The position numbers and the translations under genes were made by a program. Shown piece by piece: positions 6,642-12,664 of a stretch of DNA of 24,761 bases (its first letter is position 1; each line of letters starts with the position of its first letter). The notes beneath the pieces were generated by a model. It had not been told where the DNA came from. It searched no databases and saw nothing but the letters and a program-made list of their open reading frames with translations. Origin of the DNA: Deltaproteobacteria bacterium (GTDB lineage Bacteria; Campylobacterota_A; Desulfurellia; JAGGSF01); contig JAGGSF010000099.1 in assembly GCA_021159235.1 (NCBI GenBank), forward strand, positions 1-24,761. The letters are read 5' to 3'.

Positions 6642-7544
6642 TTAAAGAGTAATGTATTCCTCTTTATCAAAATGAAACACATGTGGAGGAAGACTTCTAA
6701 GAGGGGCTTTGTCCATAATCTTTTTTACCCTGTTTACCTTTTCTTCAGGCAAATCCACAGACAGATTATTCTCCAAACAGTATAATATCTCATCTATATC
6801 CTCATAAGGCAGCCCCAGTATAAACTCATCATCTATACCCGGTACAAGATCAGGTGAAGGTGGTTTCTCCAGGATAGCCTTAGGAATTTTCAGTCTCCTG
6901 GCTATCTCTCTTACCTGTGTTTTATAAATGTTTGCAAGAGGTGTTATGTCTGCTAATTCATCTCCATACTTTACATACAAACCAGTGGATATTTCAGTTT
7001 TGTTTGTATTTCCTAAAACCAAACCCCTACGCAGATCCGCATGAAAATAAAGTAAGATTGCCCTCAGTCTGGCCTTTGCTCGGTAGTAAGCCTGTGCTTC
7101 CCAGAAATCCTTTTCCTTTGCGCTTGAAGTGAGATCTTTTAGAAAAACATCCTCACCGCCCATCTCTTTCCATTGTCTCCTTACCCATTTTTCCTGTGTC
7201 TTTCTGGGAATCAGAAATGTAGGAGGAGACAGACGATAAATACCTATCTCTCTTAAGGCTTTGGTTATATTTATAAATCTGTAATCTATATCCAAAATAT
7301 GAGCAAGCGCAATAGCATCTCTCGTATTCTGGATAGAGGAGTGCTTTTCCGGCAGAATGAGACCAAATACATTTCTCTTTCCTACAGCTTCCACCGATAG
7401 GTAAGCATCTACCGTTGAATCCAATCCCCCACTCAGCCCTATTACAATCGCTTCACTTCCCTTTGAAGATTCCTTGATAAAGTCACACATCCTGGAAATG
7501 AGCTTGGTATAATCAATAGAGGCGAGAAAATCTTTATATTTCAT
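6642..7544 (-). CDS. nadE: NH3-dependent NAD+ synthetase with an internal insertion
   Basis: Final step of NAD+ synthesis: amidates deamido-NAD+ with ATP and ammonia. The PP-loop SGGLDST is at 38-44, and the characteristic NTNKTEISTGLYVKYGD and DITPLANIYKTQVREIAR segments follow at 179-216. There is no N-terminal nitrilase domain, so free ammonia is the expected nitrogen donor. At 300 residues it is longer than the usual 245-275. The extra length sits at about 103-150, a charged stretch with IPRKTQEKWVRRQWKEMGG and KEKDFWEAQ. The ATG lies only 11 nt after the 3' end of tRNA-Leu and has no Shine-Dalgarno, so translation may depend on the processed tRNA end. It is the last gene of the sirtuin/tRNA operon. 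Confidence 0.93.
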   Translation of the reverse strand: MKYKDFLASIDYTKLISRMCDFIKESSKGSEAIVIGLSGGLDSTVDAYLSVEAVGKRNVFGLILPEKHSSIQNTRDAIALAHILDIDYRFINITKALREIGIYRLSPPTFLIPRKTQEKWVRRQWKEMGGEDVFLKDLTSSAKEKDFWEAQAYYRAKARLRAILLYFHADLRRGLVLGNTNKTEISTGLYVKYGDELADITPLANIYKTQVREIARRLKIPKAILEKPPSPDLVPGIDDEFILGLPYEDIDEILYCLENNLSVDLPEEKVNRVKKIMDKAPLRSLPPHVFHFDKEEYITL

Positions 7545-7555
7545 ATAATTTATAA

Positions 7556-7642
7556 TGCCGAGGGCGGGAATCGAACCCGCACGGGAGGATCACTCCCACC
7601 AGATTTTGAGTCTGGCGCGTCTACCAGTTCCACCACCTCGGC
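7556..7642 (-). tRNA. tRNA-Leu (CAA anticodon)
   Basis: An 87-nt class II tRNA. The acceptor stem is GCCGAGG/CCTCGGC, the anticodon arm is CCAGA-CTCAAAA-TCTGG with anticodon CAA at 7608-7606 (reads UUG), the long variable arm is GGGAG-TGATC-CTCCC, and the T arm is GCGGG-TTCGATT-CCCGC. The discriminator base is A (position 7556) and the next bases are TTA, so CCA is not encoded and must be added enzymatically. It lies 12 nt after the sirtuin stop and 11 nt before the nadE ATG, on the same strand, so it is almost certainly cut from a polycistronic mRNA. Confidence 0.97.
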
Positions 7643-7654
7643 GCTTGCATTTAT

Positions 7655-8506
7655 TTAACACCCTGAATCTTCATTGTCAAGTTGCAACAATCGGTATATG
7701 GCAAGCAATGCATCCTTGGCCTTCATCTTTAAAAAAGCATCAGGTTCGCATACTAAAAGAGAACCGGCATCTGGATTTATGGTTATTATGTAACTGCCCT
7801 TTTGCTTGAGGCGAGAAGCAATACTGTCGTTAGTGGGAATAGCAGAGCTACTGCCGATGAGAAATACTACATCCGGCACCTTTACCTCTTCTAAAAAGCC
7901 ATACCAATTCCTCTTCTGATAGGTATTATCTATATAATCCCAGTCACCAAACATAAGTATATTTGGCCTTAAAAGATCACCGCAGACCGGACAAATAGGG
8001 AGTTTGCTTGCCTCCATCTTTTCTTCATCTAAATCACATAAAGGTACCTCATAATTTTCTCTCACCCCGTAGTTACATCCCACCTCTCTCATACATTGCA
8101 ATCTCCACATGGAACCATGAACCTCACAAACGGATGTAGGTTCAGCTCCAGAAATAAGATGATACCCATCGGTATTTGTGGTATGGATAAAGGCTTTTTT
8201 GAAGTGTTTTTTCATAAGCTTATTTATCACTGTATATCCCGCATGTGGTTTATTCTGGTGCGCATTTCTTCTTCGCCACTCATAAAATGCCCATGCATAT
8301 TGAGGACATCTGCGAAAACTCTGGGGAGAAGCAAGGGTTTGTGCTTCTAATCCTACCTTTTTGAATGCAGGGAAATTTCTCCAATATCCCTCCTTGTCTC
8401 GAAAGGTAGGAATGTTAGAATCAGCAGACATACCTGCGCCCGTGAGAAAAACAGCCGTTTCAGCTTTTCTGATCTTCTCCACAATACAGGATATATCTTT
8501 ATCCAT
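7655..8506 (-). CDS. Divergent Sir2-family NAD-dependent deacylase
   Basis: A 283-residue sirtuin, expected to use NAD+ to remove acyl groups from lysines (or to cleave or transfer ADP-ribose) in the cytoplasm. The NAD-binding GAGMSADS is at 23-30, followed by NIPTFRD in place of the usual GIPxFRG. The TQNxDxLH motif reads TTNTDGYH (109-116), with Thr for Gln. The general-base His is kept (H130 in EVHGSMW), as are four zinc cysteines (C138, C144, C172, C175) and the RPNILMFGDW segment. It also has an acidic insertion at about 150-168. It is clearly distinct from the CobB-like sirtuin encoded 389 nt upstream on the other strand. The Shine-Dalgarno is weak. It is followed by tRNA-Leu and nadE, which replenishes its co-substrate. 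Confidence 0.88.
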   Translation of the reverse strand: MDKDISCIVEKIRKAETAVFLTGAGMSADSNIPTFRDKEGYWRNFPAFKKVGLEAQTLASPQSFRRCPQYAWAFYEWRRRNAHQNKPHAGYTVINKLMKKHFKKAFIHTTNTDGYHLISGAEPTSVCEVHGSMWRLQCMREVGCNYGVRENYEVPLCDLDEEKMEASKLPICPVCGDLLRPNILMFGDWDYIDNTYQKRNWYGFLEEVKVPDVVFLIGSSSAIPTNDSIASRLKQKGSYIITINPDAGSLLVCEPDAFLKMKAKDALLAIYRLLQLDNEDSGC

Positions 8507-8521
8507 ACAACTCTAACTTAA

Positions 8522-8794
8522 TCAACCTTTCCAGAGATAATCGTTTATTACTCGCTCCGCTTTTTTTTCTCCTACAAATTCATCCATAATACTTTCCACT
8601 TTTTTGAAATCACGCCATTTTTTAAATAGATCGGGTCTTACTCCTACATAGAGCTTTCCTATTATTCCCGAGGGTGGTGTTGCATACAATTGTTTTATTC
8701 TCTCCTCAATCTTCATTTTTAGCTGCTTTCTTGCCATCTTTGCAACATCTTCCTCATCCTCAAGAACATAAGGAAAAAAATTGAGCACAGACAT
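8522..8794 (-). CDS. Conserved-looking small protein of unknown function
   Basis: A 90-residue soluble, charged protein with no signal peptide or membrane segment. The first half is predicted helical (DEEDVAKMARKQLKMKIEER), followed by a TPPSGIIGKLYVGV turn/strand and a basic-acidic C-terminal helix. I do not recognise the family. The start is well supported by AGGAGG 5 nt before the ATG and by a promoter just upstream. It is the first gene of the operon with the divergent sirtuin (15-nt gap), tRNA-Leu and nadE, so a role as partner, substrate or regulator of the sirtuin is possible but only from context. Confidence 0.75.
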   Translation of the reverse strand: MSVLNFFPYVLEDEEDVAKMARKQLKMKIEERIKQLYATPPSGIIGKLYVGVRPDLFKKWRDFKKVESIMDEFVGEKKAERVINDYLWKG

Positions 8795-8822
8795 ACCAAC
8801 CTCCTTCAGTTATACTGTTATT

Positions 8823-8851
8823 AAGATATAAATCTACTCCATCTCTGTCAA
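8823..8851 (-). promoter_or_regulatory. Promoter of the 90-aa protein/sirtuin/tRNA-Leu/nadE operon
   Basis: Minus strand TTGACA (8851-8846), 17-nt spacer, TATCTT (8828-8823). The predicted start near 8816 gives a leader of about 22 nt that includes the AGGAGG ribosome site. The consensus -35 is one arm of the palindrome shared with the divergent promoter. Confidence 0.7.
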
Positions 8852-8865
8852 GGCAAAGCTTGACA
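8846..8865. promoter_or_regulatory. 20-bp palindrome joining two divergent -35 boxes
   Basis: TGTCAAG-GCAAAG-CTTGACA is a perfect 7-bp inverted repeat with a 6-bp centre. Each arm contains the TTGACA -35 box of one of two divergent promoters, so the two polymerases would compete for the site and a single regulator could control both sirtuin units. Confidence 0.6.
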
Positions 8866-8889
8866 CATTATACGGTTTCTGATTTTATA
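8860..8889 (+). promoter_or_regulatory. Promoter of the CobB-like sirtuin, predicted leaderless
   Basis: TTGACA (8860-8865) is followed by an AT-rich -10 region, TTTTAT at 8883 (17-nt spacer) or TTTATA at 8884 (18-nt spacer). The GTG start codon at 8895 is 5-6 nt after the -10 box, leaving no room for a ribosome-binding site. Confidence 0.6.
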
Positions 8890-8894
8890 TAGTT

Positions 8895-9638
8895 GTGGAA
8901 AAAGCAAGCAAATTGATACAGGTTATTAAATCTCATCATAATATCATCGCTTTAACAGGTGCTGGTATATCCACCAGAGCGGGCATTCCTGATTTCAGGG
9001 GCGATAAAGGTATCTATAAGATGAAAGGTGTATCAGCAGATAAAATATTTGACATAACCTATTTTCGGACTCATCCCGAGTATTTCTATCATTTTACAAT
9101 GGGACTTATACCTAAACTTTACGATGCCCGACCCACAACAGGACACAGACTTCTGGCAGAACTGGAAAAAATGAAATACCTAAAGGGCATTATTACTCAG
9201 AATGTAGATGGACTGCATCAAAAAGCAGGCAGCAAAAATGTTATAGAGATTCACGGTTCTATGTGGAAGTTTTATTGCATCTCCTGCGGTAAGAAGTACA
9301 GCTACGATGAGATTAAGGAGGTAGTTCTAAAGGGGAAGGTGCCACGGTGTGAGTGTGGAGGACTGATCAAGCCAGATGTTGTTTTCTTTGGAGAAGCAGT
9401 AAAAGAAATGGAAAAAGCCATCCGCTGGGCAGGTGAGGCAGAACTGATGATCGTTTTAGGTTCAACACTTGTTGTTTATCCCGCAGCTCAATTGCCACTG
9501 TATACTATTGAAAATAAAGGTAAATTGATTATTGTTAATAAAGACCCTACACCCATGGACAAGTATGCTATTTTAGTTTTTCATACAGACATAGAAGAAT
9601 TTGCCCGGGCAGTGTTGAATGAGATAACCAGATCTTGA
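8895..9638 (+). CDS. cobB: Sir2-family NAD-dependent protein deacylase (CobB-like)
   Basis: A 247-residue canonical bacterial sirtuin. It uses NAD+ to deacylate lysines, releasing nicotinamide and O-acyl-ADP-ribose. Motifs are complete: GAGIS (22-26) with [16 protein letters not shown] (101-108), catalytic H120 in EIHGSMW, zinc cysteines C128, C131, C152 and C154 (CISC, CEC), [10 protein letters not shown], and a [14 protein letters not shown]-terminal NAD segment. The start is GTG, and the first motif lies only about 20 residues in, so the start cannot be much later. No Shine-Dalgarno is present and the -10 box ends 5-6 nt upstream. It is divergent from the other sirtuin operon and is followed by ftsH under a separate promoter. 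Confidence 0.94.
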
Positions 9639-9678: not shown

Positions 9679-11490
9679 ATGTCACTTTATAAGAATTTGT
9701 TTCTATGGTTAGCAATAGCTTTAGTAATGATCGTTTTGTTCAATACCTTAAGTACCGAACATTACAATGCTACAAAAAAGATCAGCTATACACAGTTTGT
9801 AAAACTGGTTGATGAAAACAATGTTAAGAGCATAAAAATCAAAGGAACAGAAGTAATAGGAAAATCAAAGGATAACAGTTCTTTCAAAACATATATTCCG
9901 CAAAATTCAAACATCATAGAAAAACTGGAGAAAAACAACGTCAATATAGAAATTCTCCCTGAAAATAAAAATTCATTTGTGTTAAATATGCTTTTCTACT
10001 GGGCGCCTGTAATTCTTCTTGTTTTTCTCTGGTTCTATTTTATGAGCCAGATGCAAAGAGGCGGAAAAGCAATGAGCTTTGGTAAAATAAATGCTCCTTT
10101 AAGTATGGCTGCAGGGAAAAAGGTTACATTTAAAGATGTTGCCGGCGCAGACGAATCAAAAGAAGAGTTAAGGGAAGTAATAGACTTCCTGAAAAATCCT
10201 GGAAAATACAAACGACTGGGAGCAAAGATCCCTAGAGGCGTTCTGTTGGTCGGACCACCCGGTACAGGAAAAACCTTGTTAGCCAAAGCAGTAGCAGGAG
10301 AGGCGGATGTGCCTTTCTTGAGCATTAGTGGTTCTGATTTTGTAGAGATGTTTGTAGGAGTAGGAGCGGCACGGGTAAGAGACCTGTTTCAACAGGCAAA
10401 GAAAAACGCACCATGTATTGTATTTATCGATGAAATAGATGCAGTAGGCAGGCACCGGGGAGCAGGTATTGGCGGTGGTCATGACGAAAGGGAACAGACT
10501 TTAAACCAGCTCCTGGTAGAAATGGATGGTTTCAAGACCACAGATAATGTAATTGTTATGGCTGCAACCAACAGACCGGATATCCTGGATCATGCATTAT
10601 TAAGACCGGGAAGATTTGACAGGAGAATAGTGGTTTCAAAACCAGATGTGAAGGGCAGGGAAGAGATATTAAAGGTGCATACTGCAGATGTGAAGTTGGC
10701 AAAAGATGTAGACCTGAAAATCGTGGCTAAAGGAACACCGGGATTTTCCGGTGCAGATCTGGCTAACTTAGTAAATGAAGCGGTTTTACATGCAGCAAGA
10801 CTCAACAAAAAAGAAACGGATATGGCTGATTTTGAAATAGCCAAGGATAAAGTGCTTATGGGACCAGAGAGAAAAAGTATGATAATTAGCGAAGAGGAAA
10901 GGAAAAATGCGGCATATCACGAATCTGGTCATGCTATGGTGGCAAAATTTCTCCCCAATACTGACCCCGTGCACAAGGTAAGTATTATTCCTCATGGAGT
11001 TGCAATGGGTATAACCCAGCAGTTGCCAGAAGGAGATAGACATACTTACGACAAAGAGTATTTACTTAATAAAATTGCGGTTTTAATGGGTGGAAGGGTG
11101 GCAGAAGAACTTGTCATGGGGCACATCACAACGGGAGCTGCAAATGACATTGAACGAGCTACTGACATTGCCAGAAAAATGGTTTGCGAGTGGGGAATGA
11201 GCGGCTTAGGACCCATTGCCTATGCATCAAACAAGGATGAAGTCTTCTTGGGAAGAGAAATAGGAAGATATAAAACCTACAGTGAGAAAACGGCTTCCGC
11301 TATAGATGCAGAGATTAGAAAGATTACAAATAAAGGTTATGAGACAGCAAAAAAAATAATATCCACTCATATAGATAAGTTGCATAAAATCGCCAATCTA
11401 TTATTAGAAAAGGAAACCATTACAGGGAAAGATATTGACAAAATACTGGGATCAGATAATGCCCTTCAAACTGGAGCTATTTCCGCCTGA
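9679..11490 (+). CDS. ftsH: ATP-dependent membrane zinc metalloprotease FtsH
   Basis: A membrane-anchored AAA+ protease that degrades misassembled membrane proteins and regulatory substrates. It has TM1 at about 6-24, a periplasmic domain, TM2 at about 100-122, Walker A GPPGTGKT (192-199), the pore loop FVGV (225-228), Walker B IVFIDEID (247-254), the second region of homology [18 protein letters not shown] (298-315), the zinc motif HESGH (414-418), and D490 in AANDIERAT as the probable third zinc ligand. At 603 residues it is at the short end of the normal range and lacks a long C-terminal tail. It has its own promoter, and its 3' end overlaps the folP start by about 32 nt. Confidence 0.98.
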
Positions 11491-12664
11491 AATAACCTTT
11501 ATCGACAAGCAGATGAAAGACATTGGCGTAGATGATATAGGCCTTTCCATTATGAGGGAAAAAGGCAATAGTATGTGCTTTTGCATTCATGATGTAGCCT
11601 TTCATCTGGCAAATATATTGAAACAGGAAGCTCTTGCTATAGGGGCTGATGCGGCTGTGCATAAGAATTGTGTATCAGGAAAAGTGGAAAAAACAGACAT
11701 TCTATTGTTAGGCAACGTAAAAGATATGCGAGATTTAAGTATAAAATTGAAAAAACAGAGCTTTTCGGCATTGAAAATGCTGGGAGATAAACTGGATGAG
11801 AGCATCAGCGGATATTTAAAGAATGAATTTACCATCAGAGGCCCACATCTAAATATGCAACTGGGAAAAAGGGCTCATCTGATGGGAATCCTCAATGTCA
11901 CACCCGATTCTTTTTACAATGGAGGAAGATACATAAATGTGGAAAAAGCAGTAGACCACGCCCTGAAAATGATAGATGACGGAGCGGATATTATAGATGT
12001 AGGCGGAGAATCTACAAGACCGGGGGCAAGGGCCGTAGATGAAAAAGAAGAAATCAGCCGGGTTATTCCGGTAATTGAAGGAATAAGAAAAAAAAGCAGT
12101 ATTCCCATCTCCATTGATACTTACAAGTCAACAGTCGCAGAAAAGGCCATACAGGCAGGAGCAAATATGGTAAACGATGTGGCATTAAAGTTGGATAAAA
12201 AGATGATAGATGTAATAAAAAAATACGATGTTCCCATCGTGGTTATGCATATGAAGGGAGTGCCGCGAACAATGCAGCTAAACCCTGTATACGAGCATGT
12301 TATTCCCGATATTTTAAAGCAAATGGAAGAATATATAGGAATGTTGAAGGAAAATGGAGTGGATGAAGAAAAGATCATTGTTGATCCCGGTATAGGATTT
12401 GGAAAGAGGATGGAGGATAACCTTGTTATTCTTCACAGACTGTATGCCTTTAAGGTTTTAGGGAAGCCTATATTGATAGGTGCATCCAGAAAATCTTTTA
12501 TCGGCAGAATATTAAACAATAATGTGGAGGAAAGATTATGGGGAACATTAGCAGCAATAACAATAGCCAGAGCAAATGGTGCACATATCCTGAGGGTTCA
12601 TGATGTTAAAGAGGCTAAAGAAGCCTTAAAAATAACAGATGCAATAATGAGGGAAGGAGTATGA
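11459..12664 (+). CDS. folP: Dihydropteroate synthase with N-terminal extension
   Basis: Condenses p-aminobenzoate with dihydropterin pyrophosphate in folate synthesis; the classic sulfonamide target family. The TIM-barrel core starts at about 135 and carries [10 protein letters not shown] (143-152), [11 protein letters not shown] (180-190), SIDTYK with D220, MVNDV (237-241), [20 protein letters not shown] and GASRKSFIG. About 130 residues precede the core, including [20 protein letters not shown]. Extended DHPS proteins with a similar N-terminal segment occur in several anaerobic lineages; its function is unclear. I chose the ATG at 11459 ([10 protein letters not shown]) over the ATG at 11435, which would overlap ftsH by 56 nt. 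Its stop overlaps the dtd start by 4 nt (ATGA). Confidence 0.92.

Follow-up and report, generated by a model that had tools for sequence, protein, structure and literature searches.

The locus is best regarded as a genus-specific chromosomal neighbourhood with three promoters and an accessory NadE-type gene, and not as a dedicated system of NAD homeostasis; we put the probability of this reading at roughly 0.6. Next to a tRNA present in one copy, the neighbourhood appears to hold genes for a deacylase and for an accessory amidating ligase of the NadE type, in an order that is kept locally. Because the NadE-like gene, labelled nadEx here, is extra and divergent and transcription of the tRNA probably starts from a promoter of its own, the locus would represent a local gene arrangement and not an NAD control circuit. 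The window, that is, the whole stretch of 24,761 nucleotides that was analysed, belongs to a draft assembly of 1.13 Mb (G000) from the class Desulfurellia. On its minus strand, p90, sirA, tRNA-Leu(CAA) and nadEx follow one another with gaps of 15, 12 and 11 bp, respectively (Table 1). The positions and strands of all five features are those of the preliminary description. Its list of an unknown 90-residue protein, a sirtuin, tRNA-Leu(CAA) and a NadE-type gene in the given order agrees with Pfam, NCBIfam, ARAGORN and Rfam, and a second sirtuin, sirB, does diverge from the same site.

Table 1. Features of the p90–nadEx neighbourhood and their positions in the window.
Feature	Position	Strand	Basis
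p90, 90-aa orphan, first gene of the p90-sirA unit	8522-8794	-	ORF
sirA, predicted Sir2-family deacylase	7655-8506	-	PF02146
tRNA-Leu(CAA)	7556-7642	-	ARAGORN, Rfam, genome scans
nadEx, NadE-superfamily paralogue with an insert of ~50 residues	6642-7544	-	PF02540
sirB, canonical CobB-like sirtuin, divergent, upstream of ftsH	8895-9638	+	PF02146
p90-sirA promoter, TTGACA-17-TATCTT	8823-8851	-	promoter scan; kept in three species
Proposed tRNA promoter over the sirA 3' end	7652-7680	-	conservation and tRNA-leader rule

Both sirtuins carry the SIR2 domain, with E-values of 3e-24 for sirA and 2e-53 for sirB. In sirA, the catalytic His129 and the cysteines 137, 143, 171 and 174 are invariant in the alignment. 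The domain, the catalytic histidine and the zinc cysteines by which Sir2 deacylases are recognized are thus all present in its sequence, and as a member of this family the protein would act as an NAD+-dependent protein deacylase. The catalytic histidine and four zinc-type cysteines are shared with the Sir2/CobB deacylases, and the nearest solved structures by sequence are those of archaeal Sir2 (4twi, 1m2g) and SIRT5. Unlike Sir2/CobB, sirA is longer, contains the motifs TNTDGY and RPNILMFGDW and falls under every NCBIfam CobB equivalog cut-off. Its orthologues (62–67% identity) occur in most class Desulfurellia genomes, and outside the genus their surroundings differ, with a radical-SAM gene as a frequent neighbour. 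The orthologues of sirB in two sister species (G001 and G002) are 87–88% identical and likewise lie upstream of ftsH. A sirtuin-based anti-phage defence was considered and rejected, as the PADLOC SIR2 matches were negligible and the best one for sirA was to a pAgo model (E 0.045). The intergenic space between p90 and sirB (8795–8895) contains two -35 boxes about 9 bp apart, and sirB may be leaderless, with a promoter very near its GTG. A conserved regulator site common to p90 and sirB was also rejected; no inverted repeat was found at the setting used, and in the sister genomes this space holds extra, contig-breaking sequence (at the starts of L035, L053 and L054 and at the end of L055).

The first gene, p90, has no match in Pfam, NCBIfam, PADLOC or PHROGs. 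Orthologues with 91–92% identity were found only in G001 and G002, and no homologue outside the genus was detected in the 61 genomes searched. Several weak matches (E 0.003–0.08) were dismissed because they lie within long unrelated reading frames. The identity in the sister species, together with purifying selection (dN/dS of 0.07–0.11 for these two species against the window copy), argues that p90 is a real gene. Its AlphaFold2 model shows four helices, has a low confidence (pLDDT 51) and is too poor for a structure search.

The gene-neighbourhood search in relatives showed the order p90-sirA-tRNA-Leu(CAA)-nadEx in three species of one genus, namely the window and the two sister species, with protein identities of 87–92%, and it did not find this order outside the genus. 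Since G001 and G002 are mutually close (dS 0.07–0.09), and each differs from the window at a dS of 0.35–0.57, they represent one comparison over a fair distance and not two. The persistence of the order between lineages at a dS of about 0.5 counts against our reading of the locus. All genes are under purifying selection relative to the window copy (dN/dS 0.07–0.13; 0.11–0.13 for nadEx), and the nadEx reading frames are intact in all three species. The gene after nadEx is a convergent NTPase-like gene in the sister species, so the unit ends there at nadEx; in the window, the next gene encodes an ROK kinase. Among 79 nadEx loci from other lineages, none has a sirtuin or p90 nearby. Together with the other neighbours of sirA in relatives, this speaks against a system that extends beyond the genus.

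One promoter had been proposed to drive all four genes, and this was not confirmed. The TTGACA-17-TATCTT element ahead of p90, upstream of all four genes, is kept in the three species; besides it, a second conserved promoter-like box directly precedes the tRNA. This second TTGACA is located near the end of sirA, within the codons CTT GAC AAT, 38 bp ahead of the tRNA, and does not differ among the three species. The proposed tRNA promoter comprises the TTGACA at -38, a spacer of 16–17 bp and an imperfect -10 element (TTAAAT or TAAATA). For comparison, the 120 bp ahead of the 20 other tRNA genes of G000 (L192–L211) were inspected. TTGACA begins 34–43 bp before the tRNA in 14 of these 20 leaders, and 0.1 would be expected from the TTGACA frequency of the window. 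A perfect TTGACA at -34 to -43 is a clear organism-specific rule for tRNA promoters. Given the box and its distance, which is typical for the tRNAs of this genome, it is likely that tRNA-Leu(CAA) has its own promoter, and this pattern suggests that tRNA(-nadEx) is probably a separate transcription unit. Transcription from sirA may still run on into the tRNA. In the arrangement that we propose, one of two divergent promoters would serve sirB(-ftsH) and the other p90-sirA, and the third, within the end of sirA, would serve the tRNA. For nadEx, no Shine-Dalgarno sequence was found within the 11 bp after the tRNA (the duplex energy is -1.7 kcal/mol vs. -12.2 kcal/mol for p90). Its expression would most likely depend on read-through from the tRNA promoter, with tRNA 3'-end processing releasing the nadEx transcript.

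A link to translation through tRNA-Leu(CAA) had been suggested as well. This tRNA is the sole leucine tRNA with the CAA anticodon detected in G000 by ARAGORN, Rfam and genome scans and is therefore considered an ordinary single-copy tRNA, which leaves the suggested link unsupported. The idea that it regularly accompanies sirA or nadE was rejected, since it is placed elsewhere in most genomes of the class. In Desulfurella, it is found 3.8–4 kb after sirA, and in some Hippeaceae (L170, L171, L172 and L173), it lies next to the nadA-nadC-nitrilase-nadE operon, with side and strand varying. As its position differs among the genomes of the class, the gene order around it is fluid. The 3' CCA of the tRNA is encoded in the sister species (L035, 1416–1424) and is absent from the window (7544–7556).

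The nadEx product belongs to the NadE superfamily. It scores 183.6 bits against NAD_synthase PF02540 (cut-off 21; E 4e-54) and 171.4 bits against TIGR00552 (cut-off 63.65). It stays below the NCBIfam equivalog for NAD+ synthase, PRK13980 (204.5 vs. 255 bits), which a Caldiserica relative (L068) passes with 266.9 bits, and it does not reach the cut-off of NCBIfam PRK00876 (172 vs. 313). The best PDB match of its AlphaFold2 model (pLDDT 89) is 2e18, with a Z of 28 and an rmsd of 2.4 over 234 residues. The predicted fold is like that of NadE (2e18 and 1xng; Z 27–28, rmsd 2.0–2.4), and the SGGxDS, GNTNKTE, KYGD and YKTQ motifs are present. Unlike NadE, nadEx has an insert of about 50 residues (at about residues 97–150), carries FVKYGD and SPDL instead of GxxTxYGD and S/TADL, lacks the DExELG glutamate and is a second copy. 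In the tree, insert-bearing proteins and canonical NadE form separate clades (SH-aLRT 99). Across the clade, the exchanges fall on positions that canonical NadE keeps invariant or almost so. The DExELG glutamate is present in 20/20 canonical NadE proteins, where the three genus members have Ile and the wider clade mostly has Ala, Ser, Val, Tyr or Phe. The other conserved NadE positions are mostly retained, which counts against our reading. Within the ATP-pyrophosphatase motif SGGxDS, the window copy reads SGGLDS and both sister species read SGGLNS (D42N; L035 and L053), and residue 42 is Asp in all 76 clade members outside the genus. With these motifs, nadEx probably activates a carboxylate by adenylation with ATP, followed by amidation with ammonia, and its substrate would be NaAD, in the role of a backup enzyme, or, more likely, a different carboxylate. 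The family scan yielded 389 relatives; the best 80 of the 389, which were analysed, come from Caldisericota, Thermotogota, Chloroflexota, WOR-3, Actinomycetota, Lokiarchaeota and others and include a member of the same genus, the MAG Desulfurellaceae bacterium RS_18_25 (L067). The distribution of the clade over bacteria and archaea is patchy.

The preliminary description took this gene for the enzyme that makes NAD+. The source genome has a canonical nadE elsewhere, in nadA-nadC-nadE (L057), and a further NadE, either NH3- or glutamine-dependent, was found in 18 of the 20 other nadEx genomes tested. In 17 of these 18 genomes, the match is near full length, and in G070 it is of the glutamine type and apparently split over two contigs; G062 and G077 showed no clear second NadE. 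In an operon of Dehalococcoidales (L079, 479–3012), a canonical nadE, a DegV-like gene and nadEx stand in a row. It is therefore probable that nadEx is not the main NAD supplier. The sister species present a different picture. Behind nadC, the canonical nadE is gone in both G001 (L185, G001:C5) and G002 (L186, G002:C110), with nadA, nadC and the genes that follow still in place, and in G002 the initial codons of the former nadE persist as an overlap with the end of nadC. These are the same two species in which D42N was found. G001 possesses a glutamine-dependent nadE that overlaps glnA (L056, 1868–4938, G001:C9). In G002, no second NadE was detected, and the locus that matches the one in G001 ends in a different gene, though this assembly is broken into 230 contigs. 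A search for glnA, run without a positive control, gave no match in G000 or G002. As nadA, nadC and nadD are still present in G002, NaAD should form there, and something must amidate it. Thus, nadEx may be the sole NAD synthetase of G002. This case is the strongest argument for the NAD-supply view and counts against the reading preferred here. If nadEx does amidate NaAD in G002, Asn stands for the otherwise invariant Asp42.

The best-surviving alternative is the one originally proposed, namely that sirA uses NAD+, which nadEx would provide as a second NAD+ synthetase, and that their co-expression matches supply to use. We consider it unlikely. The order kept in three species, the purifying selection on nadEx and the situation in G002 are consistent with it, and so is a parallel in Desulfurella that also counts against our own reading. 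In three genomes of this one genus (L051 in G006, G013:C58 and G019:C18), a canonical nadE directly precedes a CobB-like sirtuin gene on the same strand, with a 16-nt overlap in L051. As in the window, a NadE gene adjoins a sirtuin gene on one strand. Unlike the window, the nadE is the canonical one of nadC-nitrilase-nadE, the sirtuin is CobB-like, p90 and the tRNA are missing, and the pair contains no orthologue of nadEx or sirA. Closeness of nadE and a sirtuin gene was seen in 2 of the 44 genera scanned, both from the class Desulfurellia, which has a chance probability of about 0.01–0.07 at an assumed rate of 0.3–1% per genus. The parallel is thus independent but weak, with the count of genera borderline by chance, and is suggestive at most. 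Further points against the alternative are the probably separate tRNA promoter, the housekeeping nadE of G000, the D42N exchange in both sister species and the 79 other nadEx loci without a sirtuin linkage. In its main points, the proposed mechanism of a single promoter, NAD+ use matched to supply and a tie to translation lacks support. Among the papers covered by the literature search, none described a sirtuin–NadE operon; gene clustering of PII with nadE has been reported (PMC7196632).

It is also conceivable, and clearly less probable, that nadEx is a decaying passenger caught behind an essential tRNA gene. An exchange at an otherwise invariant residue of the ATP motif in two species, the missing Shine-Dalgarno sequence and the patchy, transfer-like distribution would fit such a fate. 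The intact frames and low dN/dS of nadEx speak against it, as does the fact that G001 and G002 lost the canonical nadE but retained nadEx. Amidation of NaMN to NMN, as by NadE* of Francisella tularensis, is very improbable: it would account for G002 without an ordinary NadE, a NadE homologue with an altered substrate has a precedent (PMC3376133) and 3fiu, labelled NMN synthetase, ranks third among the structural matches, with a Z of 26.7 that lies within about 1 of the best, but all NadE structures match alike, so this rank is unspecific, and Francisella has NadM in place of NadD, whereas NadD is present in G000, G001 and G002.

As an operon story, the neighbourhood is of small weight, since the sirtuin link is limited to one genus and the tRNA promoter is probably separate. 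Of what remains, the nadEx clade is the most interesting, as a second NadE-type enzyme that is probably put to a different use. The PRK00876 'NAD(+) synthase' subfamily is an insert-bearing sister clade of nadEx. Its cut-off is passed by distant relatives (such as L117, L125 and L141) that, unlike the window gene, are found in polysaccharide-type clusters with an ACP and an AMP-ligase. In many phyla (L106–L146), PRK00876 NadE-like genes adjoin genes for ACP, an AMP-forming ligase, and asparagine-synthase-like and WbuX-like proteins, and distant relatives also sit with sugar amidotransferase genes. These neighbours suggest a non-NAD amidation. Tentatively, and at somewhat less than even odds, the insert-bearing clade, to which the window gene belongs along with relatives from Caldisericota, Thermotogota, Chloroflexota, WOR-3, Asgard and other archaea, could represent a second NadE-type enzyme of wide occurrence that acts on a substrate different from NaAD, in an ATP-dependent amidation not yet described. 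Its genes probably receive the annotation 'NAD synthase' through TIGR00552 or PRK00876, although most of the host genomes already own one. Elsewhere in the window (11435–12664), a dihydropteroate synthase carries an N-terminal extension of about 140 residues, which is also present in the sister species.
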